Shown here: piece by piece, positions 19,665 to 36,483 of the stretch | Layout: each line of letters opens with the position of its first letter | Position numbering within the stretch: position 1 is the first letter of the stretch | From: Alphaproteobacteria bacterium | GTDB taxonomy: Bacteria > Pseudomonadota > Alphaproteobacteria > Rhizobiales > Rhizobiaceae | Direction: 5' to 3' | Assembly: GCA_024742485.1 (NCBI GenBank) | Contig: JANSYK010000001.1 | Span: forward strand, 930,001-994,000 | Length of the DNA stretch: 64,000 bases | The notes under the pieces: generated by a model | Seen by the model: only the letters and a program-made list of their open reading frames with translations | Database searches by the model: none | What the model was told of the DNA's origin: nothing | Position numbers and translations under genes: made by a program

Positions 19665-22600
19665 TGTTGTCAGATCTTGCCATCCGGCGACCGGTGCTTG
19701 CGGCCGTAGCAAGCCTGCTCATCATCGTCTTCGGCATCGGCGCCCTGTCTCAACTGCCAATTCGCGAACTGCCGGATATTGACACTGCCGTTGTGTCGGT
19801 ACGCACCACCTATACCGGCGCATCGCCGGAGATTGTCGATATCGACATCACCGAAGTGCTTGAGGGCTCCATCGCCGGGATCGCCGGTGTCAAGACAATC
19901 AGCTCCCAAAGCCGCCGGGGGCGCAGCTCGATTACGGTCGAGTTCGAGGTCGGGCGTGACATCGACCAGGCGGCCAATGACGTTCGAGATGCGGTCGCGC
20001 GGGTGCGGGCGGATCTGCCCGCCGATGTCGGCGAACCGCAAGTCGTCAAGAATGACGCAGACGCCGACCCCGTGATGCGACTTGCGGTGGTCAATCCGAA
20101 CATGACCGCTGCCGAAATCACCGACTACGTGGATCGTTACATCGCCGATCGTCTGGCAACGGTACCCGGTGTCGCCAATATCGATCTCTACGGAGATCGG
20201 CCGATGGCCGTCAGAATCTGGCTCGATCGGCGTGCCATGGCAGCGCGCAACTTGACGGTTGCGGATATTGAATCGGCACTCAGGCGCGCCAATGTAGAAC
20301 TCCCCGCCGGCGAACTCGAAACCGCCTCACGCCAACTCACGGTGAGACTGAACAGCCGCATTCCGACAGTCGAGGCATTTTCCGACGTTGTCATCAAACG
20401 GGAGGGAGGACATCCCATTCGTTTGCGCGACGTGGCCCGGGTGGTTACCGGTGTGGCCAATGACAGCACAATTGTCCGCAACAATTCGGCAACTGCTGTC
20501 GGTATTGCGGTCATCCGGCAAAGCCAGTCAAACACGCTTGCAATATCCAATGGTATCCGCGCCCAGATCGAAGAGATGAAGAGCGGCCTGCCCGAGGGAA
20601 TGGTGATCGAGGTGGGTTCTGATGATGCCATCTTTGTCGGCGCATCGATCCGGGAAGTGCTGATCGCACTCGGCATTTCGCTGGCGCTGGTCATCAGTGT
20701 CATCATCGTATTCCTTCGGTCGTGGCGGGCGACACTGATCCCGGCCATCACCATACCGGTGGCGCTGATCGGCACATTCATTCTTGTTAGCGCGCTCGGT
20801 TTTTCCATCAATGTCCTGACCTTGCTGGCGCTGCTGCTTGCCATCGGCCTCGTGGTGGATGACGCCATCGTCGTGCTGGAAAACATCCAGCGGCGCATTG
20901 ATCATGGCGAAAGCCCGCTGAAGGCCAGCGTTTTGGGCGCCCGCCAGGTGACATTTGCCGTGCTGGCAACCTCCATGACCCTGATCGCAGTGTTCGTTCC
21001 CCTGTCCTTTCTTCAGGGCCAGGTGGGGCGCCTCTTCACCGAGTTCGGGTTCGTCATGGCAAGCGCTGTGCTCATTTCCACATTCGTTGCGTTGACCGCC
21101 TGCCCTGCCCTTGCCTCCAAGATCCTGCGCGGACCAGCAGCCACCGTCACGAACGAGCCCGGCACGCCACCGGCCGAAGGTCGGTTCATGCGCGGATTCC
21201 GGGCATCCGTTGCCTACGCGCTCAGCATTCCGATTGTTGTCATTGCCATAGCGGTCGGGATTGCCGGTCTCGGCTACGGGGTTTACGGATCCCTGCCCCA
21301 GGAATTGAGCCCGAGCGAAGACCGTGGCGTGGTCTTTGTGCCCTTGTCGGCTCCGCAGGGCAGCACGGTCAGTTTCACCGATACGGCGGCGCGACAGGTG
21401 GAAGAGATCGTCGAACCGCTGCGCGAATCCGGTGACGTGGAAACGGTTTTCACCTATAGCGGCGGTTTCGGCCGGCAAAACCGGGCCTTTGTCGTGCTCC
21501 GGCTCGCCGACTGGTCGGACCGGGAGAGCAGCCACCATGATGTTGTCGGCGCCATGGCGCCGAAGATGCGTCAGATCACGACTGCTGCAGGCAGACCAAT
21601 CACTCCGGCCGGCCTCGGCCTGCGTGGCAGCCGCACACCCCTGCGCGTCGTAGTCAGCGGTCCGGATTTCGATCTTGTGAAGGAATGGGCCAGCACCCTT
21701 CTTGCCATTGCCCAGGACAATCCGAACCTGCGCAACATGGAAATGGACTACGAGGAAAATCAGCCGCAGATCGATGTCAACATCGATCGGGCGCGGGCCG
21801 ATGATCTGGGAATCAGTGCCGACACCATTGCCGCTACATTGCAGACATTGCTGGCGTCACGCGAAGTCACGCGGTTTGTCGACCAGGGACGTGAATATCC
21901 GGTGCTGATGCAGGCCGATGAGATCGATCGAACGTCACCCTCAGACATCGACTTCATCTTCATTCGCGGCGGCGACGGCACGACTTTGGTTCCGCTGAGT
22001 GCCCTGATTGATGTGGAAACCGTGGCTGCGGCGACAGAGCTGCGGCGTTATGATCGACTGCCATCGATCCGAGTCGAAGGGTCGTTGGCCGATGGCTATA
22101 CGCTGGGCGAGGCTATCGCCTTCATGGAACAGGCTGCGGCCGAAGCCCTGCCCGAAGAGGCGCGCATAGGGCTTGCCGGCCAATCCCTGCAGTTCAAGGA
22201 AACCTCGAGCGGTGCCATGACGACGTTCCTGTTGGCATTGCTCATCGTCTTCCTGGTGCTGGCAGCCCAGTTCGAGAGTTTTGTCCACCCGCTTGTGATC
22301 ATGCTGACGGTCCCGCTTGGTGTGGCCGGCGCGGTTTTCTCCCTGGCCGTGTCCGGCATTACCCTGAATATCTACAGCCAGATCGGCATTATCCTGTTGA
22401 TCGGGCTAATGGCAAAGAACGGCATACTGATCGTGGAATTTGCCAACCAGCTCCGAGATCAGGGAATGAGCGTGCGCGAGGCTGCATTGGAAGCCACGGT
22501 GCTGCGTTTCCGGGCGATCGTCATGACGCTTATCTCGACCATCCTCGGCGCTGTTCCCCTCGTCCTGGCCTCGGGTGCCGGTGCGGAAAGCCGGATCGCG

Positions 22601-22774
22601 ATCGGCACGGTGATTGTTGGCGGCCTGCTGGTGTCGGGCGCACTCACGCTGTTCCTCACACCGGTGCTCTACAGTCTCTTTGGCAAGTTGACCACACCAC
22701 GGTCAACCGTTGAAAGGGCAATTGATACCGAGTTGAAAGATCTCGACAAACACAAGCCGGAGGCGGCTGAATAA
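19664..22774 (+). CDS. RND multidrug efflux permease, HAE1 type
   Basis: 1036 residues, full length for AcrB/MexF-type pumps. It has IRRPVLAAVASL at the N-terminus, two large periplasmic loops, and the TM4 proton-relay Asp pair in GLVVDDAIVVLENIQRR near residue 405. GLMAKNGILIVEFANQLRD is in the second half and ETSSGAMTTFLLALLIVFLVLAAQFES before TM8. It works with the adjacent adaptor to expel hydrophobic compounds using the proton gradient. No local repressor gene is present. The end converges with the glycosyltransferase gene, with 65 bases between. Confidence 0.94.
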   Translation: MLSDLAIRRPVLAAVASLLIIVFGIGALSQLPIRELPDIDTAVVSVRTTYTGASPEIVDIDITEVLEGSIAGIAGVKTISSQSRRGRSSITVEFEVGRDIDQAANDVRDAVARVRADLPADVGEPQVVKNDADADPVMRLAVVNPNMTAAEITDYVDRYIADRLATVPGVANIDLYGDRPMAVRIWLDRRAMAARNLTVADIESALRRANVELPAGELETASRQLTVRLNSRIPTVEAFSDVVIKREGGHPIRLRDVARVVTGVANDSTIVRNNSATAVGIAVIRQSQSNTLAISNGIRAQIEEMKSGLPEGMVIEVGSDDAIFVGASIREVLIALGISLALVISVIIVFLRSWRATLIPAITIPVALIGTFILVSALGFSINVLTLLALLLAIGLVVDDAIVVLENIQRRIDHGESPLKASVLGARQVTFAVLATSMTLIAVFVPLSFLQGQVGRLFTEFGFVMASAVLISTFVALTACPALASKILRGPAATVTNEPGTPPAEGRFMRGFRASVAYALSIPIVVIAIAVGIAGLGYGVYGSLPQELSPSEDRGVVFVPLSAPQGSTVSFTDTAARQVEEIVEPLRESGDVETVFTYSGGFGRQNRAFVVLRLADWSDRESSHHDVVGAMAPKMRQITTAAGRPITPAGLGLRGSRTPLRVVVSGPDFDLVKEWASTLLAIAQDNPNLRNMEMDYEENQPQIDVNIDRARADDLGISADTIAATLQTLLASREVTRFVDQGREYPVLMQADEIDRTSPSDIDFIFIRGGDGTTLVPLSALIDVETVAAATELRRYDRLPSIRVEGSLADGYTLGEAIAFMEQAAAEALPEEARIGLAGQSLQFKETSSGAMTTFLLALLIVFLVLAAQFESFVHPLVIMLTVPLGVAGAVFSLAVSGITLNIYSQIGIILLIGLMAKNGILIVEFANQLRDQGMSVREAALEATVLRFRAIVMTLISTILGAVPLVLASGAGAESRIAIGTVIVGGLLVSGALTLFLTPVLYSLFGKLTTPRSTVERAIDTELKDLDKHKPEAAE

Positions 22775-22839: not shown

Positions 22840-23853
22840 TTAGGCCTTGTCGGCATCAGTTCTCTGTTGATCACCTCTTGCTCCCCCGCCCAGCAGGCGC
22901 GGAGGATAGTCAAGGACCAGAACCCGAAGCAACCCAAGACCGCCGGCAAGGTAGTGAAGCACGTGACAGCCGCAGGAAATCATTGCAATCCGGAGATTAC
23001 CCCGCTCCTTCAGCAGGGTCAGGAATTCTCTGTTTGACCATGCAAATACGGCCAGTGCCCCAAGAAGCACAATGGTCATGGCCGGTTGAAAGGGTATCAG
23101 CAAAAGGCTGGCACCCATCACTGCAACCATCAGCAGGCTTATGCGATGCGTGGCCGTAAAGTTCAGGTCGTTTCGGGGGCCGCCATGAAACAGTAACAGC
23201 CGGCTCCACGGGACGGACCGGCCGTACAGGTCCGTCTTGAACATTGAGGGGATCGTCCAGGTTTTGAGATGTTTGCCAAACAGCTTCTTGTCGAGCCTTA
23301 TTCGCCCCCCCGCCGCGTGCAGCCGCATTCCGAACTCGACGTCCTCAATAGCCTGCCATGCCCGGTCAAAACCGCCCATCCTGATGAAGTCTTCACGTCT
23401 GACCGCTCCGATGCCCGTCCAGAATGTCGACGCATCCACATCGCTGCATTGGTGGACGAAGTGGTGCAGCAGGTTACGGTAAAAGCTGACTGCACCGTTC
23501 CTTGGTGGATCATCATCATAGGATCCGAACAGTGCGGTCAGATCAGGGTCTCGGTTGAATTGGTCCAGAATGCGGTTCCGTGCGCCCTTGCAGAGCACAA
23601 CATCGGCATCGACAAAAACGACAATGTCGCCTGACACCGCATCCACCCCGGCATTTCGGGCATCAGCCGGACCCATTGCGGTTTCGTGGCGCAGCACCCG
23701 CAGACCATGCCCCCTTGCAATGTCGCCTGTCCCGTCAGTGGACCCGTCATCGACCACCAGGATCGCGTCGCGCGTGAAGCCGGTGGCCAGAAGACCATTC
23801 AGACAGGCATCGAGTTCTCCGGCGGCTTGATGGGCCGGAACGACAACATTCAT
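22840..23853 (-). CDS. Membrane-associated family 2 glycosyltransferase
   Basis: 337 residues from ATG 23853, where the GT-A domain begins directly (MNVVVPAHQAAGELDACL); an open-frame TTG at 23910 would add 19 residues of no similarity. Nucleotide-sugar motifs are DDGSTDGT (35-42), GPADARNAGV and the DxD element FVDADVV (81-87), with the acceptor-side AIEDVEFGMRLHAAGG near 168-183. Two to three hydrophobic helices near the C-terminus (after about 240) should anchor it to the inner membrane. It probably transfers a sugar to a lipid carrier or lipid acceptor. It is divergent from the FAD oxidoreductase and opens the glycan-like cluster. Confidence 0.85.
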   Translation of the reverse strand: MNVVVPAHQAAGELDACLNGLLATGFTRDAILVVDDGSTDGTGDIARGHGLRVLRHETAMGPADARNAGVDAVSGDIVVFVDADVVLCKGARNRILDQFNRDPDLTALFGSYDDDPPRNGAVSFYRNLLHHFVHQCSDVDASTFWTGIGAVRREDFIRMGGFDRAWQAIEDVEFGMRLHAAGGRIRLDKKLFGKHLKTWTIPSMFKTDLYGRSVPWSRLLLFHGGPRNDLNFTATHRISLLMVAVMGASLLLIPFQPAMTIVLLGALAVFAWSNREFLTLLKERGNLRIAMISCGCHVLHYLAGGLGLLRVLVLDYPPRLLGGGARGDQQRTDADKA

Positions 23854-24193
23854 GCTTGTGGAGGTGTCTGGCAAGGCGCAGCGAATTCCGGTCTGAGTAT
23901 GGGGCAGCAATCTTTGGTCACATGGCCATGCTGATCGGCAATATCAGGCCCATGAAGGCCGATCATTGCAGAAGTCCAAACAAGATTGAAGTGTTGAATT
24001 CTATGAGACAGGATTTGCCAGAAAATCACGAGCAATCGCAGGTTGAACAACGGCAAACCCCACAACACAGGGATTTCGACACCAGGCCAATTTGCCGTTC
24101 CACCAACCCTTGACCCACGACAAGCTGCTGATACATATCTGTCTGGGGACGATGGCATGACAACACTGTTCCCCTCCTGGGGGCAGGTGTTGA
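23854..24193. other. Divergent intergenic region with an inverted repeat
   Basis: This 340-base gap lies between the divergent glycosyltransferase and FAD oxidoreductase genes and should hold both promoters. It contains 8-bp perfect arms TGATCGGC (23932-23939) and GCCGATCA (23958-23965) with an 18-base spacer. No convincing gene is seen; short frames here lack family similarity. Confidence 0.5.
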
Positions 24194-25678
24194 ATGCGTA
24201 TGAAATCAGTCGCGAAGCGCGATCGGGAAACGGTCGCTATTGTCGGCGCCGGCCCGGCCGGGATGACTGCTGCCTATCAGCTACAGTCTATTTCCTCCCA
24301 CTACAGTCCGATAGTCTTTGAGGCCGGACATCTGATCGGCGGCATAGCCCGAACGGAAAGCCACAACGGATTCCGGTTTGATATTGGTGGCCACCGGTTT
24401 TTCACCAAGGCTCCCGAGGTCGAGGACATCTGGAACGCGGTGCTGGGCGACGACTTGATCACGGTGCCGCGCTTGAGCCGAATCTATTACAAAGGCCGAT
24501 ATTTTGACTACCCGTTGAAACTATTGAACGCACTGTGGAACACCGGTCCCTATGAGGCAATCGCCATCGTCCTGAGTTATGCCAGATGGCGATTGCGCCC
24601 ACATCCTGTGGAAGAAACATTCGAGCAATGGGTCATCAACCGCTTTGGCGCCCGCCTCTATAACCACTTTTTTCGCAGTTACACGCAGAAGGTCTGGGGC
24701 ATCCCGCCCAATCAGATTCGAGCCGATTGGGCGGCACAACGCATCAAGGATCTTTCGCTTCTGCGAGCAATCGGCAATGCACTGGGCGGCACGAAGGAAA
24801 CAACAAGCTTGATCGAACAGTTCAAATATCCACGGCTTGGTCCGGGCATGATGTGGGAGCGCATGGGCGATCTGGTGCAGTCCGGCGGCGGCAGCGTCAA
24901 ACTCAATCATGAAGTTGTGCGCGTCTTGCGCGATGGGACCCGTGTGGATGCGCTGGACATTCGCAGCACGAACCGGTCAGGGGAAGAGACCCTTGAACGC
25001 GTGAAGGCCGACCATTTCATCAACTCGGCCGCGCTGGATGATCTGGTTGAGATGTTCGACCCGCCCGCACCGCAAGAGGTCCGGGCCGCAGCCCGGCGGC
25101 TCAAATACCGGGACTTTGTGATCGTGACACTCATACTCGATCGGCCGGATCCTTTTCCCGACAACTGGATTTATGTTCATGATCCGAATGCCAGCGTCGG
25201 CCGCATCCAGAATTTTCGGGCCTGGTCTCCCGATATGCTGCCAAATCAGCGGCAATCCTCCATTGGCATGGAGTATTTCTGCAATCAGGACGATGCTTTG
25301 TGGCGAATGGACGATGATGAACTCGCGCGTCTGGCTTCAAACGAACTCGAATCCCTTGGCCTTGCCGAGAAAAAATCGGTTACAGATTGGGCGGTCATTC
25401 GCCAGAAAAAAGCTTATCCCGTCTATGACGCAGAATATGCATCGGCGCTTCAAATCATCCAGGCCTGGCTCAATCAGTTGGAAAATTTCCAAACGGTCGG
25501 CCGCAACGGACTTCACCGGTACAACAACCAGGATCATTCCATGCTGACGGCCATTTTGGCGGCCAGGAACATCGCCGGTGAAAATCACGATCTCTGGAAT
25601 GTGAATGTCGAGCGTTCTTATCAGGAAGAGTTCCAACTCTCAGAACAAAAGACTACGCAGTGCCAGGTTCACTCATGA
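24194..25678 (+). CDS. FAD-dependent oxidoreductase, UDP-galactopyranose-mutase-like / amine-oxidase fold
   Basis: 494 residues. The Rossmann ADP-binding motif VAIVGAGPAGMTAAYQL lies at 14-30, followed by VFEAGHLIGGIARTES. NGFRFDIGGHRFFTK (about 57-71) is typical of a subgroup related to UDP-galactopyranose mutases and phytoene-desaturase-like flavoproteins. A C-terminal GRNGLHRYNNQDHSMLTAILAARNI segment supplies the second FAD-contact motif. Members often lie in polysaccharide or glycolipid clusters. Here it sits between a glycosyltransferase and an alkaline-phosphatase-fold gene. A ring-contracting mutase, a sugar oxidase or a polyprenyl-modifying enzyme are possible; none is proven. It should be cytosolic. 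Confidence 0.8.
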   Translation: MRMKSVAKRDRETVAIVGAGPAGMTAAYQLQSISSHYSPIVFEAGHLIGGIARTESHNGFRFDIGGHRFFTKAPEVEDIWNAVLGDDLITVPRLSRIYYKGRYFDYPLKLLNALWNTGPYEAIAIVLSYARWRLRPHPVEETFEQWVINRFGARLYNHFFRSYTQKVWGIPPNQIRADWAAQRIKDLSLLRAIGNALGGTKETTSLIEQFKYPRLGPGMMWERMGDLVQSGGGSVKLNHEVVRVLRDGTRVDALDIRSTNRSGEETLERVKADHFINSAALDDLVEMFDPPAPQEVRAAARRLKYRDFVIVTLILDRPDPFPDNWIYVHDPNASVGRIQNFRAWSPDMLPNQRQSSIGMEYFCNQDDALWRMDDDELARLASNELESLGLAEKKSVTDWAVIRQKKAYPVYDAEYASALQIIQAWLNQLENFQTVGRNGLHRYNNQDHSMLTAILAARNIAGENHDLWNVNVERSYQEEFQLSEQKTTQCQVHS

Positions 25679-25703
25679 TTGGTCGAGAACGCGACGACAG
25701 CCT

Positions 25704-27272
25704 CTAATGTTGTGTCTGCTGATTCGGTAAGGGCTTGCCAAGACCGCCAATACCTCTCTCGCTCAGGGCGGCCCGCTCCATTTCCTTCTGTTCGAACCAA
25801 TGGACGGCATGAGCGCTCAAATCGGTGATGGAAGCCACCGCCTTTGCGCTCTGATTATCAGCCCCAGCACCGAGAAACGCTGTAAAGCTCTCCCCGTTGT
25901 GATTGCCGCCACGCCCCGTTCCCAAACGACGATAGATCGTTCCAATAGCCTCTGACTCGATTGTGTCGACACTCTCGGAAGGTGCCCAATGAATACGAAG
26001 GTCAGGCAGGAATTGGCTATTCTGGCCTGGATTATTCCCATGGACATCATCGATTTTGGCAATAAGCGGTTCACCAGTCGCACTCACCCTGATCTCCGAC
26101 AGTCGCTCCTTCAGCCAGCTTTCGTAACGCTTGAATTCCGGGCTGTCTGGATCAAACAGGCCATCTCGTTCGCGACCCTTGAGATTGTACCGTACAAGTC
26201 CCTCCCCGCCCGCATGAATATAGAAGGAAGGTGTTTTGCTCCAATCCATATTGCCTAGCAATGCGCGGTTGACCACCCAATCCTGAATATCTTCGCCAAG
26301 AAAGGCCGCGGTTGCGTATTGCAATTCAGGGGGCAAGCTCGCCCGCAACCGGGACAACAGATTTCTGTGCGGGACAGCCGTTTCGGTGACCCGTTTGCCC
26401 TCCAAAAACAAGAGATTCAGTCGACGCAATATCTCATCGACAAAGTGTTCCTGGCCGGCATTGGCCTCCATTCCGCTGAGGGAAAAAACGGCGAGTTGGG
26501 TATCTGATAAATCAAGCGTATCGATTATTCGTCCGATCTGCTCGTCGGCTGCAATATGGACGTCCAGCATGTCGTCATCTTCAGCCAGAGACGCGAAGTC
26601 ACGCTCAGACGGCCAAAGATTATGGCCCGCCCGATGAATCTCGTAGATCCCGGTCAAAAAGAACTCCCAGTCATATTTCTGGGACAACCAGATAATGGCG
26701 TCTGCCTTGCGACGAACGGATTCAATCATTGCATCGCGCAGTTGCCTAGAATGGCGTGCACTCTTTCGCACCGGAATTTCCGGACCGATCGGGCGCCTGC
26801 CGAACCGTTTTCGAAGTTGCGGGAGAAGCTCCGGTGGTGAGGAAAACGCTTTACCCGTCGACTGGTAGTTCCAGTTGGTCACTTCGACGCCCGGAATATC
26901 GCTCGCCGGATTGACACCGCCTGCGTCGAGGACAAGGGACTGCAGGCCGCGCCGTGCGTAAGGGTACCAGAAAGGCTCTATGTTGAAGCCCTTCGCCCAG
27001 CCGCGACCCTGCATGTTGTGATAGCGCATTTTGGCCGGGTTAAACTGGAAAGGAAAATAGTGACCGTGATGTCCCGGGTCCTTGCCGCTGACAAAGGTGT
27101 ACCAAACGCTGGCAGATGCAAACTCGGCACTCGATTGGATGTCTTTTGCTTTGCCTTCCGTCAGAATTCGTGACAGCACCGGAAGGCGGTTGCTGTTGCG
27201 CTCGACGAACGACCTGCTCATCGAATCGATTCCAAGCATCATCAGGCGTCGCGGGAGTCGCCGACTCCCCAT
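25704..27272 (-). CDS. Alkaline-phosphatase-superfamily protein (phosphodiesterase-like) with altered metal motifs
   Basis: 522 residues from ATG 27272; a TTG at 27317 and a double ATG at 27242/27239 are alternatives. The N-terminal MMLGIDSMSR (Asp16) and SASVWYTFVSGKDPGHHG correspond to the first metal Asp and the nucleophile strand of type I phosphodiesterases; Ser53 sits where Thr or Ser acts. Further on is IYEIHRAGHNLW (Glu211, His213, His217). The usual DHG metal motif is here FSLSGMEAN, lacking both Asp and His. The C-terminal NHNGESFTAFLGAGA resembles the last His motif. It may cleave phosphate or phosphoglycerol esters on glycans, or have lost catalysis. No signal peptide is evident, so it is probably cytosolic. 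It is divergent from the flippase-like gene. Confidence 0.75.
   Translation of the reverse strand: MGSRRLPRRLMMLGIDSMSRSFVERNSNRLPVLSRILTEGKAKDIQSSAEFASASVWYTFVSGKDPGHHGHYFPFQFNPAKMRYHNMQGRGWAKGFNIEPFWYPYARRGLQSLVLDAGGVNPASDIPGVEVTNWNYQSTGKAFSSPPELLPQLRKRFGRRPIGPEIPVRKSARHSRQLRDAMIESVRRKADAIIWLSQKYDWEFFLTGIYEIHRAGHNLWPSERDFASLAEDDDMLDVHIAADEQIGRIIDTLDLSDTQLAVFSLSGMEANAGQEHFVDEILRRLNLLFLEGKRVTETAVPHRNLLSRLRASLPPELQYATAAFLGEDIQDWVVNRALLGNMDWSKTPSFYIHAGGEGLVRYNLKGRERDGLFDPDSPEFKRYESWLKERLSEIRVSATGEPLIAKIDDVHGNNPGQNSQFLPDLRIHWAPSESVDTIESEAIGTIYRRLGTGRGGNHNGESFTAFLGAGADNQSAKAVASITDLSAHAVHWFEQKEMERAALSERGIGGLGKPLPNQQTQH
27253..27269. promoter_or_regulatory. 17-bp perfect palindrome at the 5' end of the phosphodiesterase-like gene
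   Basis: GGGAGTCGCCGACTCCC has 8-bp perfect arms around one base. It lies just inside the ATG 27272 start and just upstream of the alternative ATGs at 27242 and 27239. If translation starts at the later ATGs the palindrome is in the leader and could be an operator. If not, it is coding and its symmetry may be chance. Confidence 0.3.
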
Positions 27273-27492
27273 TTCACCGCATTTCAAGATCGCCCCCTGA
27301 CAGTCGGTGACAGGCAATGTGCACTATCACCGACAACATGAATTGCGGTCAATCAACCCAACATTGAAAAGGGGTGTTTTCGATGCACCTGCCCCGATAC
27401 CCAGCGCAAAATCGAAACGGTGCATTCGTTATGTCGATCGTGTCGTCTCGTACCAGACGGTCAGTTAGGGTATAGGAGAATTCAATGATCAG

Positions 27493-28461
27493 ATGCAGGT
27501 AACCGGGATGAAGAACGGCGTACGGACTATCGTCAAAGTGCTGGTCGCTGTGTTCATATTCTGGCTGATCAGCCGCTTCGTCGATCTCGGAGAGGCGGCT
27601 GCAATGATCATTGCTGCAGACCCGATCTGGTTGATCGCTGCAGCGCTTCTCGGTCTGCCGTTCGCGCTGCTGGAAAGCACGCGCTGGATTGTCCTGATGC
27701 GCGCCATGGGGCAAGTGTTTCCCTTCAAGGCATCATTGATCTACACGCTGGTCGGTTGGTTTTTCAATATTGTCAGCCCGGCAAACACCGGTCAGGATGT
27801 TTTTCGGGCGGTCCAGATGACGCGGCTGGGCATGGACAAAGGCATGGCGGTGCGGTCGGTTATCATCTACCGCTTCACGTCCTTCTGGAGCCTCATTCTG
27901 GTCGTTCTGGCCGCCTTCCCCTTTGCCATGAGCTATGCCCATACATCGGCCAATCAGATCATCCTGAGCATTCTCGTTGCAATGAGCTGCGGGTTGATGG
28001 GATCAGTCCTTTGCCTTGATGTGATCCGTCACATTCTGCCGAAGAGCTTTGCGCGCGAGATAACGACGAAACTCCTGTCTCCGTTCAGACAATTGAGGTC
28101 CGTCCTGTTTCAGTCCGACCAATCCTTTCAGATCAGTCTCTGTGGTGTCGCCGTCCATATGTGGCGGGTCCTGATCATTCTGTTTTTGGCCTACGCGCTG
28201 AACATCCAGACATCCTACGGTGAGCTGTTTTTGTTCGCTCCGCTGGCCCTGCTGGTGGCCATGGTGCCGATTACCGTCAGCGACTGGGGAACAAGGGAAG
28301 CGGCCTTTGCCTTTTTCCTTCCCTGGATTTCGGTGTCGGCGGAACAGGCGGTCGGCCTTTCTGTCCTGTTTGGCCTTTACAGAATCTTCAATGGCATCCC
28401 GGGGGCATTCGTCTGGTTCCTGTCCGACAAAAGCAGTTATGCTGTTCCCGGAAACCAATGA
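27493..28461 (+). CDS. Flippase-like membrane protein (LPG synthase TM region / UPF0104 family)
   Basis: 322 residues with about eight membrane segments. VGWFFNIVSPANTGQDVFRAVQMTRLG (near 85-115) is the hallmark of the lysylphosphatidylglycerol-synthase membrane-region family, as is the later VPITVSDWGTREAAFAFFL (near 258-276). Standalone members without the soluble synthase domain are commonly found in glycan or lipid clusters and are proposed to flip lipid-linked intermediates. ATG 27493 and ATG 27508 are both possible starts. It is divergent from the phosphodiesterase-like gene and convergent with the first of three GT-C-like genes. Confidence 0.82.
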   Translation: MQVTGMKNGVRTIVKVLVAVFIFWLISRFVDLGEAAAMIIAADPIWLIAAALLGLPFALLESTRWIVLMRAMGQVFPFKASLIYTLVGWFFNIVSPANTGQDVFRAVQMTRLGMDKGMAVRSVIIYRFTSFWSLILVVLAAFPFAMSYAHTSANQIILSILVAMSCGLMGSVLCLDVIRHILPKSFAREITTKLLSPFRQLRSVLFQSDQSFQISLCGVAVHMWRVLIILFLAYALNIQTSYGELFLFAPLALLVAMVPITVSDWGTREAAFAFFLPWISVSAEQAVGLSVLFGLYRIFNGIPGAFVWFLSDKSSYAVPGNQ

Positions 28462-28497
28462 GCGTGTTTACGGAATGCGCAGTTTCCTCTTTCGGCG

Positions 28498-30663
28498 TCA
28501 ATCCGCCAGACGTTCCAGTTCGTAGTGCGAGAAAACGATGTTTGCATTGGCGTCGGCATTCAGCCGAATCTCAAAATTCTTCATGTCTGCGGGAATCTCG
28601 AAGTTACCGGACGCGATGCGGTCCTGGCCTGTTTCCTTTTCCTCTAATGGAAATGTGTGATGAATACGGTTGCCGCCTTCGGATACAAGATCGAACCAGG
28701 ACTTCTCGATATCAGTGGCACTGCCGAAGGCATGGAAGCGGTAACGTCCGGCATCGAGATAACCATAGGGGCCAAAGAAGACATGGCCCGAGCGTTTGTT
28801 CGAGACGATGGAGCCATCGATCAGTTCACCGACGCCCAAATGTCCGGCAAGATTTGAACTGTTCACACGAGCGAGAAAAGTTGCTGGCCGATCTTCATGG
28901 TCCATACGGACAAAGACCTGCGCGTAGCGGCCCTCTTCTCTGCGGCCGACCGTCTTTCGCGCATAGGCTTTCAGCCCGGTATAAAGCTCCTGCGCAATAA
29001 CCACTGCTCCCGCATCGGCAAGGGCCGGATGGTCCCGATAGGTCAGATAGGGTCCGTCACACCTCTCGATCCAGTCAGAGACCTCCATTCGTCGAAATCT
29101 GAAATTCATCAGGTAGTAGGTGAGTTGATTTAGACGCTCATAGCGCCTGATGTCATCCGATCGATCTTCTCTCGGTTCAAACGCGATACAGCTGTTCACA
29201 GGATAGGTATCACGAATGAATTGAGACAGCTCCGAGGGTCGGCCGTTGACCCAGAAGGATTGATGATGCCATTCGATCTGGTTGCCGATGCACATCAAAT
29301 ACAGCCCCACCAGGAACAGCTTCACAATTCTTACAGGGACAAACACCGCAAGTACGCACGCCAGACCGCCCCAAAAAAACCATTGAAGCATCGTCCCATC
29401 TGGAAAGAGCACTGTGGGCCAAAAACTTGACCCCTCAATTTCGTTCAAGTCCAGGGTTTCCCGCCGGTTCGTCAGATGGAAGAGAAAGACCAAAGCGAAC
29501 ACGCCGGTGGTGATGATCAACCCGTATATCCGGGGAGCGCAGAGAAGAAATGAGAACAACAGAAACGGAAGCAGCACAGCTTCGAGATGCCGGCCACTAA
29601 ACCATTCGTTTGCCCAGATGACGGGCGTCAGGTTGTTTGACAGCGATGTCACAGCAACCATACCCAGTATGGAAAACAAACCGAACACCAGGAGACCGAT
29701 TGTCTCGGGTCTCTGCCCATTCCTGTTTCTGCTAACTGCCGCTACCCGCAAAAGGGTATAGGCCACGCCGCCACTGGCGAGTGCCAATGTTCCCGCGAGG
29801 ATATACGCCATTTGGCCAACATATTTTGTCAGGACATGGACAACACCATCGAGTGAGGCAACCAATGCCAATTCGTCCAGCGGCGACGGATAATGGAGTT
29901 TCGGCTGGAACCCTTCCGGGGTCATCGCGTTGCGAAGCAGCGGTTGGAGAACCTGCTGATAGGATAAAATCATGACAATGATTATCAACGCGGCCGTCAT
30001 GGCCGGGACGATCAGTCTGCGATCCATCCAGCACATTAGTGCGAGGGTCAATGCCGCTGCTATGCCGACAGGTAATCCGGATGGATGAATCCACGTTAAA
30101 AAACCGACCAACAGGGCGAAAACTGAAAGGCTCCTTGCGGGTGAAAAGGCCGACTGGCAAAGCATCCAACAGGCCGCAACGAACACAAGGATCATCGCAG
30201 GTGTCGAAAAGGCGTATCCGGTCATAGTCGGGTAAGCGGGATAAAGCGCGCACAAACCAACGGCAGATATCCGCGGCAAGCGTTCACTCGACAGGAACCC
30301 GGATATGCGATGCAAAAGAAACACTGCACCCGCAAAAAGAACAGCATTGGTGACCAGCACCGCCTTCCAGATTGTGGTCGGTTCTTCGAACAGCAGGAAG
30401 CCGGGCACCAGAAACAACGAATAGCCGAAATGATAACTGCTGGCCGCATCAATCGACCGTCCCGAAAGCGCAGCGGCATTGGTCAGATACCCGATTTCGT
30501 CCGTCAAATAGGTCGGTCCGGTAAACTGCCAGCTGAGCGCCAGATAGGAGACAAAAGTAATGACGGCAAGAAGGAACGCATCCGGCAAAAACCGGTTTTG
30601 ACTGCCTATGCCCAGTGCGGATTGCGGCAAATCTAGATCACGGAACTCACCGGCTGCGGCCAT
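28498..30663 (-). CDS. Polytopic GT-C-like membrane protein, paralogue 1 of 3
   Basis: 721 residues from ATG 30663, with GAAG eight bases upstream; the other two copies are 721 and 720 residues, supporting this start. The first half has about ten to eleven membrane segments. After the first helix, GPTYLTDEIGYLTNAAALSG carries the acidic Asp-Glu pair expected of the first external loop in GT-C glycosyltransferases, which use polyprenyl-phosphate sugars. The last about 220 residues, after IEWHHQSFW, are soluble with a sandwich-like pattern (GHVFFGPYGYLDAGRYRF). It is the most divergent copy (for example SGRHLEAVLLPF instead of HGRYxEAxLAPF). No named family was recognised beyond the GT-C-like topology. 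Transcribed after copies 3 and 2. Confidence 0.75.
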   Translation of the reverse strand: MAAAGEFRDLDLPQSALGIGSQNRFLPDAFLLAVITFVSYLALSWQFTGPTYLTDEIGYLTNAAALSGRSIDAASSYHFGYSLFLVPGFLLFEEPTTIWKAVLVTNAVLFAGAVFLLHRISGFLSSERLPRISAVGLCALYPAYPTMTGYAFSTPAMILVFVAACWMLCQSAFSPARSLSVFALLVGFLTWIHPSGLPVGIAAALTLALMCWMDRRLIVPAMTAALIIIVMILSYQQVLQPLLRNAMTPEGFQPKLHYPSPLDELALVASLDGVVHVLTKYVGQMAYILAGTLALASGGVAYTLLRVAAVSRNRNGQRPETIGLLVFGLFSILGMVAVTSLSNNLTPVIWANEWFSGRHLEAVLLPFLLFSFLLCAPRIYGLIITTGVFALVFLFHLTNRRETLDLNEIEGSSFWPTVLFPDGTMLQWFFWGGLACVLAVFVPVRIVKLFLVGLYLMCIGNQIEWHHQSFWVNGRPSELSQFIRDTYPVNSCIAFEPREDRSDDIRRYERLNQLTYYLMNFRFRRMEVSDWIERCDGPYLTYRDHPALADAGAVVIAQELYTGLKAYARKTVGRREEGRYAQVFVRMDHEDRPATFLARVNSSNLAGHLGVGELIDGSIVSNKRSGHVFFGPYGYLDAGRYRFHAFGSATDIEKSWFDLVSEGGNRIHHTFPLEEKETGQDRIASGNFEIPADMKNFEIRLNADANANIVFSHYELERLAD

Positions 30664-31031
30664 CAACAAACTTCAAATATCGGTAGAGCTGGAGCGACAG
30701 GTTCCGCATCGGACATCAATCAGAACAATTCCTATGCGAAGCAGTGATGCCGTATCATCGAAGTCGGGTCAATCCCTGGTGAAATCGTCGGTCGAACCAA
30801 AGGCGTGGTGCAGTGATGTAATAACGTCCGGAGGACGATCGCCCTTCATACAAGAGGCAACATTCCGGCTGAGATGATCGGGATAATCGATTCCGACCAA
30901 ACCAGTATCCGCACCTGATTGGAAAGACCAAGGCGGCTGCTGCGCACACTGCCCAATGCCAACATGACTGACCTCGATGAGCGTGCATCCCAATTGAGTG
31001 AATTGCGATGCGCGTTCGCCCCAAATGACCG
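30664..31031. other. 368-base gap between paralogues, with a possible gene remnant
   Basis: No intact gene is supported. On the - strand an open frame with natural-looking composition runs from about 31050 to a stop at 30769 (TVIWGERASQFTQLGC near its start; STDDFTRD at its end) but has no ATG near its beginning and overlaps the end of paralogue 2. It may be a fragment of a lost gene or chance. The promoter or leader of paralogue 1 should also be here. Confidence 0.3.
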
Positions 31032-33197
31032 TTATTTGGGTATCATCTCTAGATCATAATGCGAAAATGAGATGTCAGCATCGCTGCCCACAAACAAACG
31101 TATCTCGAACTCACGCAGGTCCTCTGGAACATCAATCTCACCAACTGCGATCAGTCCTCTGGCTGTTTTGACAGGTTGGATCGGAAATACACCATGGATC
31201 ATGTTGCCTCCATTGGTGGCTAAATCGACATATGAGCCGTCGACATTGCCAGCGCGGCCATAGACCTCCAATCGAATCTTGCCGGCATTCAAGAACCCGT
31301 AAGGTCCATAAAACGCGTGACCCCTCGAGCCGGTGGTGTTGATCAAGCCACTATCCAGTTTCCCGACACCAATGCGACCGCGAAGATCCTCGGCATTGAC
31401 GCGGGCCACATAGGATATGTTTTGGTTTTCATCGGAACGACGAATGAATACCCTGCCATAGGTCTCGTGGCTTGCATCACTGGCAGGGTCCTTCGCATAG
31501 ACCTTCATTCCCACATCCAGCGTCTGCGCAATTAATACAGCGCCTCCACTGTTGAACGTCGTGACATCATCAAAGGTGAGATAGGGCCCACTGCATTTCT
31601 CGAGCCAATCCGCAGGCGTCATTCGACGATAATCGTGGTTCATCAGATAAAAGGACAGCTGATTGAAACGCTCGTATGGTTTGTTGCCAATGTCGTCCCG
31701 GCCGGCAGGACTGTAGGCAACACACGTTCCGTCCGGGTATTGATCGCTGACAAGACGATATAGATCTGTCGGATTCGCGCTTGCCCGGAATGACTGGTGA
31801 TGCCAGGAAATCTGGTTGGAAATGCAAAGCACATAAAGGCCGACCAGCAGACCTTTCACGATCAGGCTCGGCAGGAACAGAGCAATGCTGCACGCCAGTG
31901 CGCCTGCCAGAAACCAGACAAAAACCGGTTCGGCCGGAAAAACGGTTTGCGGCCAGAAGGAGGGATGTTCCACTTCGTCGGTAAAACCAACCTCCTGCCC
32001 GATCATCCAATAAAGAACGAGCAATGATGTGAGAACACCAAGCGTGACCGCAATGCGTTGCGTTCGTCGCGCGCTGCACAAAAAGGACAAGAGCAGAAAG
32101 GGCGCGAGAACGCTTTCGATGTATCGGCCATGAACCCAATGATTGTCGAAGTAAGACCACGGCTTGGTGAAAATGATTGCTGTGAATGCGGCAACCCCAA
32201 GCACCGAAAGCGTCGTGAATAGCAGGATGGCGATTCGCTCTGCACTGTCACGACGGTCTGCACTACCAATCACCATCAAGCGATTGACAACATAAGCCAC
32301 GCCCGCGCCTGCCAGCGCCAAAGTGGCAATAAGCACAATTCCGATCTGTGCCAGAAATCTGGTGACAAACTCTACCGCACCGCCCGGGGAATAAACCGGG
32401 TTCAATTGATCCATGACGCTAGAATAGTGAAGGCTTGGCTTAAAACCTTCCGGTGTCATCATGTCGAGCAATGTCGGGTTCAGATACACCTGGTACACCA
32501 AAACCATCAGCACCAAAGCCAGGACCGAAACAACGGCCATCGCAATCCGGTCGCGATCGATCCAGGCAAGCGCGCCCAGGGTTATCACTGCTGCCACCGC
32601 AACAGGTAAACCGACCGGATGAACCCAGTTCAGAAATCCCACAAGCAAGGCGAAGATCAACATCCCTGCCTTTGGCATCTTTGGCAGGAGGCAGAAGGCA
32701 GAACTCGCTGCGACAAATATCAGGACGATTCCGGGTGTGGAATAGGCGTATCCCGCCATGACTGGATAGGCTGGATAAAGCGCGACAAGCGCAACGGCAA
32801 CGAATCTCAGCCGGCGATCGTCGCAGAACAATCCCGACATCCGATGCAACAGGATGATGGACGCGGCAAACAGCAGGGAATTGGCAACAAGCACTGATTT
32901 CCAGATATGCGCAGGCTCGTTGAACAGAAGGAATCCCGGCAGCAGAAAGAGCGAGTATCCCGCATAATAGCTGCTTCCGGCATCAATTGTTCGGCCCGAA
33001 AGCGTCGCCGCATTGGCCAAGTACCCGATTTCGTCCATCAGATAGGTTGGACCGGAAAACTGCCAGTTCAGTGCGAGATAACCAATGAATGTGAATGCGG
33101 CCAGCACGGCGACATCAAGACCATGTTGAGCATTCGCCGTCGGGGCCGACCCGAAGCCTGCGCATTCCGTATCAATGGCTGTGCCTGTGGAAATCAT
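31032..33197 (-). CDS. Polytopic GT-C-like membrane protein, paralogue 2 of 3
   Basis: 721 residues from ATG 33197 (MISTGTAIDTEC); the frame is open to 33329 but the extra residues are absent from the other copies. Same architecture as its neighbours: GPTYLMDEIGYLANAATLSG in the first external loop, HPVGLPVAVAAV and MTPEGFKPSLHYSS later, WVHGRYIESVLAPFLLLSF, then ISNQISWHHQSF before the soluble C-terminal domain. That domain ends in GHAFYGPYGFLNAGKIRLEV, NGGNMIHGVFPI and SFSHYDLEMIPK. Probably an inner-membrane glycosyltransferase using a lipid-linked sugar; donor and acceptor unknown. No strong Shine-Dalgarno is seen. Confidence 0.77.
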   Translation of the reverse strand: MISTGTAIDTECAGFGSAPTANAQHGLDVAVLAAFTFIGYLALNWQFSGPTYLMDEIGYLANAATLSGRTIDAGSSYYAGYSLFLLPGFLLFNEPAHIWKSVLVANSLLFAASIILLHRMSGLFCDDRRLRFVAVALVALYPAYPVMAGYAYSTPGIVLIFVAASSAFCLLPKMPKAGMLIFALLVGFLNWVHPVGLPVAVAAVITLGALAWIDRDRIAMAVVSVLALVLMVLVYQVYLNPTLLDMMTPEGFKPSLHYSSVMDQLNPVYSPGGAVEFVTRFLAQIGIVLIATLALAGAGVAYVVNRLMVIGSADRRDSAERIAILLFTTLSVLGVAAFTAIIFTKPWSYFDNHWVHGRYIESVLAPFLLLSFLCSARRTQRIAVTLGVLTSLLVLYWMIGQEVGFTDEVEHPSFWPQTVFPAEPVFVWFLAGALACSIALFLPSLIVKGLLVGLYVLCISNQISWHHQSFRASANPTDLYRLVSDQYPDGTCVAYSPAGRDDIGNKPYERFNQLSFYLMNHDYRRMTPADWLEKCSGPYLTFDDVTTFNSGGAVLIAQTLDVGMKVYAKDPASDASHETYGRVFIRRSDENQNISYVARVNAEDLRGRIGVGKLDSGLINTTGSRGHAFYGPYGFLNAGKIRLEVYGRAGNVDGSYVDLATNGGNMIHGVFPIQPVKTARGLIAVGEIDVPEDLREFEIRLFVGSDADISFSHYDLEMIPK

Positions 33198-33476
33198 GAG
33201 AGTACTTGCGCCTGTGAGCAAACCGCAATCAAATCCGCTTACGAATCCTGCCCCACAATCCGTAGCAAGAGTCCTTTGGCAAGGACTTACCAGCAATAAC
33301 AGCCGCGGCCAATCGGCGACAGGTCTCACATCGAGGCAACCACAAGACCGCAGTCAAACGACACTGGGACCATCCAGTCAACGTATAATGGGGTTTCATT
33401 GCCGCAAGCGGGGGTGCGCCTCTGTTCAACGCAATGCCGGTTCCACAGCCATTCAAATCACGCGGTCATTTGGCGG

Positions 33477-35639
33477 TCAGTCATCAAAGATTTCCAGATC
33501 ATAATGCGAAAAATCGATGTTCGCTTGCTCACCGGCATGCATGCGAAGTTCAAAATCGGACAGATCTTCCAATAGTTCGATTTCTGCGGTTGCCATCAAG
33601 CCCTCGCTGTTCTCGCTCAACGCCAGCGGAAACACCCCATGCTTCCGATTGCCGCCATTGGACACCACATCAACCCAGGACTTGTCGACATTGCTGGCGC
33701 GGCCATAGACCTTCAATCTCAGCTTGCCTGCCGGCAGATAACCATAAGGACCGTAGAAGACATGCCCTTCCCTGCCGGTGGTTTTAATGACACCATTCGT
33801 CAGTTCTCCAACACCCGTGCGGCCCCACAGATCATCAGCATTGATCCTTGCAATATAGGTGGCCGGTCGAACAGTCTTGTCGCGAACAAAAAGACGACTG
33901 TAGGTTTCATGGCTGGGGTCCGCTGCCATCTTCCGGGCATAGACCTTCAGACCGGTATCAACACCTTGGGCGACCAGCTCAGCCCCGGCCAGCTCAAAAG
34001 CCGGATCGTTTTCATGAGTCAGATAGGGGCCATCGCAGTTTTCGGCCCAATCGGCAATTTCCATTCGACGATAGTCATAGTTCATCAGGTAAAATGAAAG
34101 CTGATTGTATCGCTCGTAGGACTGGTTACCAATTTCCAGCCTGATTGCCGGGGTGAAGGCAACGCATTCACCCGCCTCAAAGCTGTCACTGACCAGCCGG
34201 TATAGATCCGACGGGCTACCGTTCACACGGAAGGACTGATGGTGCCATGGAACCTGATTGGCAATGCAGAAGATAAAAAGCGTGCCGAGCGCCAGTTTCA
34301 CCACGGCATGGTGCACCATTACCGCAATCAGACAGGCAATACCGCCCGCCAGAAACCAGAATAGAATGTTCTCGTCCGGATAAAAGACCTGGGGCCAGAA
34401 CGCCGGAAGCTCGATCTCATCGGTAAAACCCGTCTCTTGCCCGAACGCCCAATACAGAAAGATCAACAGTGCTAACACCGTGATTGTCAGCACAAGTCGC
34501 TTAAGGCGCGCCGCGCCGCAAAGCAGGGAAATCAACAGAAACGGAGCCAGGATTGCTTCGAGATACCGACCATGGACCCAGTAATTGTTGAGATAGGCTT
34601 GGGGTTTGGTGAAAACCACTGCCGTAAGAGCGGCGACACCAAGCAGCGAAAGGAATGCAAAGGCCAACATTGCTGTTCTTGCCGGATCATCGCGTCGGCG
34701 TTTATCACCCAATAACGCGACCTGGTCCAACATGTAGACCACGCCGCCACTAGCCAAAGCCAGGGTAACGATCAGAACATACCCGATCTGAATCAGAAAT
34801 CTCGTAAGGAATTCCGATGGACCACCGGCCGAAAACACCAGCGCCAGGTGATCTGTCGCAGCTGAATAGTGCAATCTCGGCTGGAGACCATCGGGCGTCA
34901 TGATGTCCAGCAGATGCGGGTTGAGATATGCTCTGAAAATCACGATCATGAGCACGATTGTCAGCGTCGCAACTGCAGCGAACACCATCCGTTTGCGATC
35001 CAGCCACGCCATGGCACCAAGCACCAGTATGGCCGCTACGGCCACCGGCAGGCCGGTTGGATGGGTCCAACTCAATAACCCCACCAGAAGACCAAAGCCC
35101 AACAGACCGGCACCGGGTGCAGTCGCCGATCGGCAAAGAGCCCAACTGGCCGCAACGAAGACCAACATGATTGCAGGTGTCGAATAGGCATAGCCCGCCA
35201 TTGTCGGATAGGCCGGATACAATGCGCACAGCAAAACCGCGAAAAATCGCGGCCAACGGTCTTCGCTCAGATACCCGGAAATCCGGTGAAGCAGGAAAAT
35301 CGAAATGGCAAACAGCAGCGAATTGGTGACAAGCACCGATTTCCAGATAGTGAGAGGATCGTCAAACAGCAGGAAACCCGGCAGCAGGAAAAGCGAATAC
35401 CCAAAATGGTAGCTGCTCCCGGCATCGATCGACCGCCCCGAAAGAGTTGCCGCGTTCGCCAGATATCCGATTTCATCCAGCTGGTAGGTCGGGCCCACAA
35501 ACTGCCAGACCAGCGCCAGGTAGGAAACGAACGTGATGATAGCCAGGACAACTGCATCTGATCGATACGGGTTTTTCACCGCCGATTGCCGCGCAAAGTC
35601 ATCATTGCGATGCTCGGTGGAAGTCAGTGTCGAAGCCAT
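33477..35639 (-). CDS. Polytopic GT-C-like membrane protein, paralogue 3 of 3
   Basis: 720 residues from ATG 35639 (MASTLTSTEHRNDD); an open-frame start at 35756 would add 39 residues not present in the others. It contains GPTYQLDEIGYLANAATLSG, WTHPTGLPVAVAA, MTPDGLQPRLHYSA, WVHGRYLEAILAPFLL and IANQVPWHHQSF. Its C-terminal domain has GHVFYGPYGYLPAGKLRLKV, NGGNRKHGVFPL and DFSHYDLEIF. By eye it is closer to paralogue 2 than to 1. It is first in the - strand order of the three, so it may carry the main promoter. The 279-base gap to paralogue 2 shows no gene. Confidence 0.77.
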   Translation of the reverse strand: MASTLTSTEHRNDDFARQSAVKNPYRSDAVVLAIITFVSYLALVWQFVGPTYQLDEIGYLANAATLSGRSIDAGSSYHFGYSLFLLPGFLLFDDPLTIWKSVLVTNSLLFAISIFLLHRISGYLSEDRWPRFFAVLLCALYPAYPTMAGYAYSTPAIMLVFVAASWALCRSATAPGAGLLGFGLLVGLLSWTHPTGLPVAVAAILVLGAMAWLDRKRMVFAAVATLTIVLMIVIFRAYLNPHLLDIMTPDGLQPRLHYSAATDHLALVFSAGGPSEFLTRFLIQIGYVLIVTLALASGGVVYMLDQVALLGDKRRRDDPARTAMLAFAFLSLLGVAALTAVVFTKPQAYLNNYWVHGRYLEAILAPFLLISLLCGAARLKRLVLTITVLALLIFLYWAFGQETGFTDEIELPAFWPQVFYPDENILFWFLAGGIACLIAVMVHHAVVKLALGTLFIFCIANQVPWHHQSFRVNGSPSDLYRLVSDSFEAGECVAFTPAIRLEIGNQSYERYNQLSFYLMNYDYRRMEIADWAENCDGPYLTHENDPAFELAGAELVAQGVDTGLKVYARKMAADPSHETYSRLFVRDKTVRPATYIARINADDLWGRTGVGELTNGVIKTTGREGHVFYGPYGYLPAGKLRLKVYGRASNVDKSWVDVVSNGGNRKHGVFPLALSENSEGLMATAEIELLEDLSDFELRMHAGEQANIDFSHYDLEIFDD

Positions 35640-35823: not shown

Positions 35824-36483
35824 CTATGCCGCGCGGCCCTGGGTCAGTTGACGAAGTACCGACACGTAGTTGTCGACACCCTGCGCACCGGTCACAAGGT
35901 GCCTCCCATTGAACACCATCGCCGGCACACCTTGAATGCCACGAGAGGTCCAGAAGGATTCTTCCTCCCGCACTTGCTCGGCATATCGGCCGTCAGCAAT
36001 AACCTGCATCGCCTCGTTGCGATCAAGCTCCAGGGCTTCAGCCTGGTCAGCGAGGACATCCGGATCATTGACGTTTTGGCCATGGGTAAAAAACGCGCTG
36101 AACAAGGCCAACTTGAGGTCGTGCTGTCGGCCCTGGGTTCCGGCCCATGTCAGAATCTGATGCGCGCGAAATGTGTTGACCATTCGCATGTCATCCGCGT
36201 AGCGAAAGGGGAAACCCAGAGATTCGCCCAGTGCGGTCAGCCGTTCTCGGGCCTTCTTGCTGTCTTCCGGTGTGGTTCCATATTTTGCCGCAAGATGCTC
36301 GCGCAAGCCCTCGCCTTCCTCCGCCATCTGCGGATTCAGTTCAAATGGATGCCAGCGGATTGCCGCACTCAATTCGGTCTGATCCAATGCCAACGCCAAC
36401 TGCTTGTACCCGATGATGCACCAGGGACAGACAACATCGGAAATGATGTCGACCCTGACATCGGTGGTCTGTTCTTCAGTCAT
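35824..36483 (-). CDS. DsbA-family oxidoreductase, FrnE-like
   Basis: 219 residues with the thioredoxin-fold CPWC motif at about 20-23 (DVVCPWCIIGYKQLALAL), a long helical insertion, and FWTSRGIQGVPAMVFNGRHLVTGAQG at the cis-Pro end. No signal peptide, so a cytosolic FrnE/2-hydroxychromene-carboxylate-isomerase-like member is likely. These act in thiol exchange or polyketide/redox stress responses. AAGGA lies upstream of the ATG. It is divergent from the DHA2 exporter, with a 234-base gap. Confidence 0.88.
   Translation of the reverse strand: MTEEQTTDVRVDIISDVVCPWCIIGYKQLALALDQTELSAAIRWHPFELNPQMAEEGEGLREHLAAKYGTTPEDSKKARERLTALGESLGFPFRYADDMRMVNTFRAHQILTWAGTQGRQHDLKLALFSAFFTHGQNVNDPDVLADQAEALELDRNEAMQVIADGRYAEQVREEESFWTSRGIQGVPAMVFNGRHLVTGAQGVDNYVSVLRQLTQGRAA

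Follow-up and report, generated by a model that had tools for sequence, protein, structure and literature searches.

A candidate locus for decoration of envelope glycans, with three tandem GT-C-like membrane proteins, in a Rhizobiaceae genome

We have analysed a stretch of 64,000 nucleotides from a Rhizobiaceae genome (positions 930,001 to 994,000 of contig JANSYK010000001.1, assembly GCA_024742485.1; hereafter the window), in which seven genes at 22,840-35,639 encode a GT2 glycosyltransferase, a flavin adenine dinucleotide (FAD) oxidoreductase, a type I phosphodiesterase-fold (PDE-fold) protein, a flippase-like membrane protein and three tandem paralogues that resemble GT-C glycosyltransferases. 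A preliminary description of this DNA had placed these classes of genes together, and this was confirmed, all seven being intact open frames at these positions. Because the contig is 2.64 Mb long, in a genome of 6.87 Mb, the locus does not lie on a small contaminating contig. The gene set is unnamed in the open-licence literature that we searched. The following features have been assigned, where CBM denotes a carbohydrate-binding module.

22840-23910, minus strand: GT2 glycosyltransferase P0001 (PF00535, E 6.9e-24; probable true start at about 23853; C-terminal part hydrophobic as judged by eye)
24194-25678, plus strand: FAD oxidoreductase P0002 of the PRK07208.1-4 family (NF005548, 645.9 bits against a cutoff of 389)
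25704-27317, minus strand: type I PDE-fold protein P0003 with an altered metal-site signature (PF01663, E 1.6e-17)
27493-28461, plus strand: flippase-like LPG_synthase_TM membrane protein P0004 (PF03706, E 1.6e-38; TIGR00374, 59.5 bits against a cutoff of 43.2)
28498-30663, minus strand: GT-C-like paralogue 1, P0005, 721 amino acids, likely ATG start
28498-28881, minus strand: C-terminal CBM-like domain of paralogue 1 (alignment; profile matches to other proteins)
31032-33197, minus strand: GT-C-like paralogue 2, P0006, 721 amino acids, likely ATG start
31032-31415, minus strand: C-terminal CBM-like domain of paralogue 2 (alignment; profile matches to other proteins)
33477-35639, minus strand: GT-C-like paralogue 3, P0007, 720 amino acids, likely ATG start
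33477-33860, minus strand: C-terminal CBM-like domain of paralogue 3 (alignment, profile matches, whole-protein model, and Foldseek matches to CBM6 and CBM35)

Among the genomes searched, the full set is present in just one other, the same-genus metagenome-assembled genome PL25b_bin.41 (G869; the genome of the window is G000), which has a single paralogue. In G869 a major facilitator superfamily (MFS) gene comes first, then the paralogue, and then the flippase-like, PDE-fold, FAD and GT2 genes; their relative orientations match those in G000. Protein identities between the two genomes are 52-79% across the classes (GT2 67%, FAD 75%, PDE-fold 79% and flippase-like 63%). In G869 an insertion of about 12 kb, with intact frames on both sides, separates the PDE-fold gene from an intact FAD gene. 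The inserted genes, as judged by eye, include parts of a branched-chain amino acid ABC transporter and others; a 60-residue copy of the 3' end of the FAD gene lies on the near side, and the insert is flanked by direct repeats of 188 bp that are 85.6% identical (L038:12791-12970 and L039:12670-12857).

The distribution within the genus was examined in eight genomes, or in six of them for the paralogues (G870 and G871 were left out). The flippase-like protein (E<=1e-10) and the GT2 (E<=1e-20) were each found in 2 of 8, the PDE-fold protein (E<=1e-5) in 3 of 8, the third at 24% identity, the FAD protein (E<=1e-10) in 4 of 8, two of them at 45% and 32%, and the paralogues in 2 of 6; the flanking MFS gene is itself present in just two of the eight. 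A profile of the three paralogues, searched against genome contigs, recovered one relative, from PL25b_bin.41. In wider searches at the class, order, family and phylum levels, which matched 1 of 385, 3 of 199, 2 of 297 and 1 of 398 genomes, respectively, no full-length paralogue was found beyond G000 and G869; matches outside the own genome were to the tail domain alone (two proteins at the order level and one at the family level). These searches sample part of each group, and at most 2, 5, 3 and 2 candidates per genome, respectively, were scored among the matches listed. Since so few candidates were scored, and two of the wider searches recovered two of the four own copies, members of the family may have been missed. 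At E<=1e-20, the sole match to the PDE-fold protein among 297 family genomes was in the own genome. Co-occurrence of the full set beyond close relatives, the lack of which the preliminary description had named as refuting its hypothesis, was not seen in the genomes searched. A plasmid-borne or widespread family was also considered and rejected: neither P0007 nor P0004 had a plasmid match, and outside the two genomes the wider searches gave the tail domain alone.

The GT2-FAD pair is older than the locus and is conserved across phyla. A tblastn search of plasmids with the FAD protein gave seven records at E<=1e-40, five of which were inspected, the remaining two being an unannotated record and an Aeromonas record at 31%. 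In three of the five inspected (Gloeothece Cy782201 and two Methylomagnum plasmids), a GT2 directly adjoins the FAD gene, and these three GT2s, which are 35-46% identical to P0001, form one clade with P0001 and its G869 homologue (support 99/99). The GT2s of L005, L020, L040 and Novosphingobium form a separate, AglJ/ArnC-like clade (100/99). The other two inspected records are Gloeothece Cy782203, in which two glycosyltransferases outside the P0001 clade lie about 1.4 kb and more downstream of the FAD gene, and a Novosphingobium plasmid, in which, as in the same-genus genome G661, the FAD gene stands beside a GtrA gene and an unnamed protein. In G661 an ArnC-like GT2 also adjoins the FAD gene directly; Novosphingobium has a related GT2 (PF00535) at a distance of about 5 kb. 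Because of its clade and its adjacency to the FAD gene in distant bacteria, P0001 is most plausibly the FAD enzyme's partner and not a carrier-charging enzyme. The preliminary description had assigned the loading of the lipid carrier to this local GT2; that assignment, and with it P0001 as a GtrB/ArnC-like charging enzyme, is abandoned, P0001 being outside the AglJ/ArnC-like clade. UDP-galactopyranose mutase was likewise rejected for the FAD protein, which scores 24.9 bits against a TIGR00031 cutoff of 303.75 and shares with that enzyme an N-terminal stretch (TIGR00031 residues 15-178); the protein instead meets the PRK07208 family cutoff with the score given above. No paper naming PRK07208 was found in the open-licence literature. 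The G661 cluster (L040:5488-11906) contains a FAD gene (PRK07208.1-1), the ArnC-like GT2, a PF03706 gene, GtrA and an unnamed multi-pass protein of 659 amino acids.

The three tandem paralogues have pairwise identities of 58, 51 and 45%. A fourth is located on the same contig, 1.67 Mb from the locus (G000:C154:2636922-2638964), and is 35-37% identical to the tandem three; together with the G869 copy, this makes five copies for comparison. In all five, residue ~465 is preceded by 11 to 13 hydropathy peaks, by a simple and crude window count made with no trained predictor, and a hydrophilic tail of about 250 residues follows. A DEIGY (DE-x-GY) motif follows shortly after the first hydropathy peak, and GR[YH] is found at 350-357. 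An unannotated frame of Nonomuraea gerenzanensis (L050:3902-5899, 666 amino acids), detected by tblastn from the fourth paralogue (E 2e-3), has DE-x-GYL and GRYL motifs; its E value is 4.6e-4 against the five-copy profile (nominal million sequences) and 1.5e-4 against Pfam PMT (PF02366), where the score of 21.9 bits is 0.8 under the cutoff of 22.7; no tail domain was matched in it. All five copies and this relative share D55, E56, G58, Y59, H193, G357 and R358. From the topology, the DE-x-GY and GR[YH] motifs and the weak Nonomuraea bridge to PMT, which agree with the preliminary description in this respect, GT-C enzymes are the best reading of the paralogues.

Paralogue 1 groups with the G869 copy in the tree (99/96); by raw identity the G869 copy is nearest to paralogue 3 (61.5%). 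Of the four sequences from this locus, paralogue 1 also has the longest branch, and it carries GRH instead of GRY. Pairwise ratios of nonsynonymous to synonymous substitution rates (dN/dS) among the three paralogues and the G869 copy are 0.20-0.30, with dS of 1.1-1.9, near saturation.

The tail ends in a recurring domain of about 110 residues (~611-720), which was modelled in paralogue 3 as a beta domain with block values of the predicted local distance difference test (pLDDT) of 69-86. In Foldseek comparison with the PDB, 12 of the 15 top matches are titled CBM or carbohydrate-binding (CBM6, CBM35 and similar); the best, 1uy0_A, has E 3.3e-3 and TMt 0.64, TMt reaches 0.69, and none of the 755 matches is at E<=0.001. 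Since lower-ranked matches include Eph ligand-binding domains and Kex2, the similarity appears to be to a jelly-roll class and not to one family; against Pfam, nine tail domains gave no CBM match and no named domain. Three other proteins contain, between them, four domains that a profile of the five tails matches (E values from 3e-18 to 1.3e-12, scaled to a nominal 100,000 sequences); searching in the reverse direction also succeeds. The first of these proteins (G832, L020:9241-14536) is a multi-pass protein of 907 amino acids with two tails in a polysaccharide cluster, and its neighbours are a PF03706 gene, an AglJ-like GT2 and, by eye, a methyltransferase-like gene. The second is a frame of about 2,000 amino acids in G394, which presumably contains GT4-like parts, and the third (G466, L022:7831-9906) combines the tail with sulfotransferase-like and Wzt_C-like parts, both just under their Pfam cutoffs. 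A fourth tail carrier is a DUF6492 protein of Sphingobium, again in a polysaccharide cluster.

The fourth paralogue (L005) is flanked on both sides by GT2s, for which the best NCBIfam matches are AglJ, PpgS and dolichyl-phosphate hexose transferase, all below their cutoffs; a weakly sulfotransferase-like protein follows. The flippase-like gene, which the preliminary description had associated with the paralogues, adjoins them in both G000 and G869, and none was seen beside the fourth paralogue, where not every gene was scanned. No paper linking PF03706 with GT-C terms was found in the open-licence literature.

P0003 passes the PF01663 gathering score (64.6 bits against 23). The canonical two-metal ligands of PF01663 are carried by D..H and SDHG motifs. 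In an alignment of five PDE-fold members, D31, S70, E226, H228, H232, S279, H291 and H473 are conserved, and ExHxxGH and FSxxxM replace the canonical ligand motifs, so that the metal site may be rearranged or single. A second PDE-fold paralogue of about 31-33% identity is found both in G000 (L018:9851-11341) and in G869 (L019:7310-8842); the gene near each is one we take to be DedA-like, and no glycan cluster was evident around either from the beginnings of the open reading frames.

On balance, we favour the view that the locus is an accessory system, restricted to this lineage, for decorating a glycan or glycolipid of the envelope on the outer side of the inner membrane. It would be a variant of three-component (GtrABS or GT136-type) extracytoplasmic glycosylation. 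The gene content, the order kept in G869, the GT2-FAD pairing across phyla and the recurring tail domain are observed; the donor and acceptor, and the flipping and transfer of the sugar, we infer as follows. Synthesis of a polyprenyl-phosphate monosaccharide would take place in the cytoplasm, with the AglJ/PpgS-like GT2s that flank the fourth paralogue as the most likely enzymes, and the LPG_synthase_TM protein would help to carry the lipid-linked sugar across the membrane. The GT-C-like proteins would then transfer the sugar outside, with the DE motif after the first helix as the candidate catalytic site and the CBM-like tail holding the acceptor glycan, as the motifs and the fold similarity suggest. 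The local GT2 and the FAD oxidoreductase, whose adjacency is conserved, may act on the same glycan, by making or modifying another of its residues, or on the donor sugar. The PDE-fold protein might handle a phosphate-linked intermediate or substituent; this is the weakest step, and its pathway role is the least certain of all the parts. The scheme of the preliminary description is therefore partly supported, since transfer outside fits a CBM-like tail acting on an external glycan, and donor loading has been reassigned to other GT2s. The three linkage-specific transferases that it proposed stay hypothetical, and the sister genome has a single paralogue. As a more tentative proposal, which we rate as somewhat less likely than not, the paralogues would be a new GT-C family and the tail a common acceptor-recognition tag for surface glycans, shared by otherwise different alphaproteobacterial envelope-glycan proteins, with the tandem array varying the residue that is decorated.

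Among the closest known counterparts is the GT136 three-component system of Citrobacter youngae O1/O2, for which we draw on parts of the published account (PMC11127046). Its enzyme is multi-pass and of GT-C type, with catalytic acidic residues close to the first helix, an essential late Arg and a C-terminal CBM for binding the acceptor; a flippase gene and accessory enzymes that alter the sugar accompany it. The GT-C-like paralogues with their CBM-like tail, the flippase-like gene and the further enzymes of the locus would be the counterparts. This enzyme, ORF12, has 11 helices, and changing D31, E34, H106 or R349 to alanine abolished its modification activity (PMC11127046). The likeness between the residue pattern of the paralogues and that of ORF12 is judged by eye and not from an alignment. 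The locus differs in having no carrier-charging enzyme and in having three tandem paralogues; a FAD enzyme of the PRK07208 type and a PDE-fold protein are not mentioned for the GT136 system in those parts of the account (PMC11127046). O-antigen glucosylation by GtrA/GtrB/Gtr, as outlined in the same parts (PMC11127046), follows the logic that we propose, namely a lipid-linked monosaccharide donor, a flippase and GT-C transfer outside, whereas the locus has no GtrA gene and its GT2 belongs outside the ArnC/AglJ-like clade. The mycobacterial EmbA-C and AftD proteins, also described there (PMC11127046), are GT-C enzymes that carry external CBMs, and each pathway uses several of them.

Several results weigh against the favoured reading. 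The three paralogues have no Pfam or NCBIfam match at E<=1, including GT39/PMT (PF02366 and PF13231), for which they are below Pfam gathering; paralogue 3, the only one searched against PHROGs, has no family match there; and, in a further difference from EmbA-C and AftD, no GT-C chain is among the PDB sequence matches at E<=10. The AlphaFold model of paralogue 3 from the five-sequence alignment has a mean pLDDT of 53 and a predicted TM-score of 0.42, with the membrane part mostly below 60, and no GT-C protein is among the best 50 of the 755 Foldseek matches; the GT-C fold stays a prediction because the membrane part is poorly modelled. The Foldseek matches appear to fall on the tail, as judged from alignments of 127-157 columns in the first five matches and from the strands, the table giving no matched range. 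The flippase is of the PF03706/TIGR00374 class, in contrast to the SMR (GtrA) and MATE flippases of the studied systems. No polyprenyl-phosphate sugar synthase is present in the locus (G869 was not searched for one), and the search of G869 for paralogues gave no fourth copy. The FAD and PDE-fold genes, and the flippase-like gene and paralogue 1, are convergent, and the PDE-fold and flippase-like genes divergent; since the strands alternate, the seven genes are not one operon. Because the full set is found in two related genomes only, shared descent alone could explain the gene order.

This last point leads to the strongest rival explanation, which we consider unlikely though a serious contender: unrelated modules standing side by side, with the old GT2-FAD pair making one product, the GT-C, flippase and PDE-fold genes another, and the adjacency in sister species reflecting shared descent. 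Under this explanation one would point to the GT2-FAD pairs of Gloeothece and Methylomagnum, near which no other gene of the locus is annotated, to the alternating strands and to the 12-kb insertion that separates the modules in G869 with frames intact on both sides. However, order and orientation have been kept in both genomes despite protein identities as low as 52% in a range up to 79%, and at the thresholds used six of the eight genomes in the genus gave no match to either the flippase-like protein or the GT2.

That the paralogues, as multi-pass proteins whose tail binds glycans, serve to polymerise, ligate or move a glycan and do not transfer sugars from a lipid carrier is improbable in our judgement. 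Such a function would suit the lack of any match to named GT-C families and the poor membrane model, but the DE motif after the first helix, the late GR[YH] and the Nonomuraea bridge to PMT argue for a transferase. We regard it as about equally improbable that the array is a relic whose paralogues diverge without a separate function for each, as the single copy in the sister genome and the long branch and GRH of paralogue 1 might suggest, since every copy is full-length with the DE motif and dN/dS is 0.20-0.30, with dS near saturation.

If accessory decoration by GT-C enzymes is the correct reading, an unnamed GT-C family will be added to extracytoplasmic glycosylation, and the FAD proteins of PRK07208 will gain a likely functional context with a recurrent GT2 partner. 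A shared glycan-recognition domain would also allow other envelope-glycan proteins to be found.

The surroundings of the locus have been compared in the two genomes. The paralogue array is separated from the MFS gene by one further gene:

35824-36483, minus strand: DsbA-like thioredoxin-fold protein (PF01323, E 3.7e-40; homologue at the same place in G869)

This gene, retained in G869, is probably a conserved neighbour and not a member of the pathway. On the other side, a resistance-nodulation-division (RND) efflux pair, recognised by eye at 18540-22774 of the window, separates the GT2 from TRAP-like transporter genes. The GT2 of G869 directly adjoins the homologue of the gene at 17027-18331 of the window; therefore, the RND pair has been gained or lost there.

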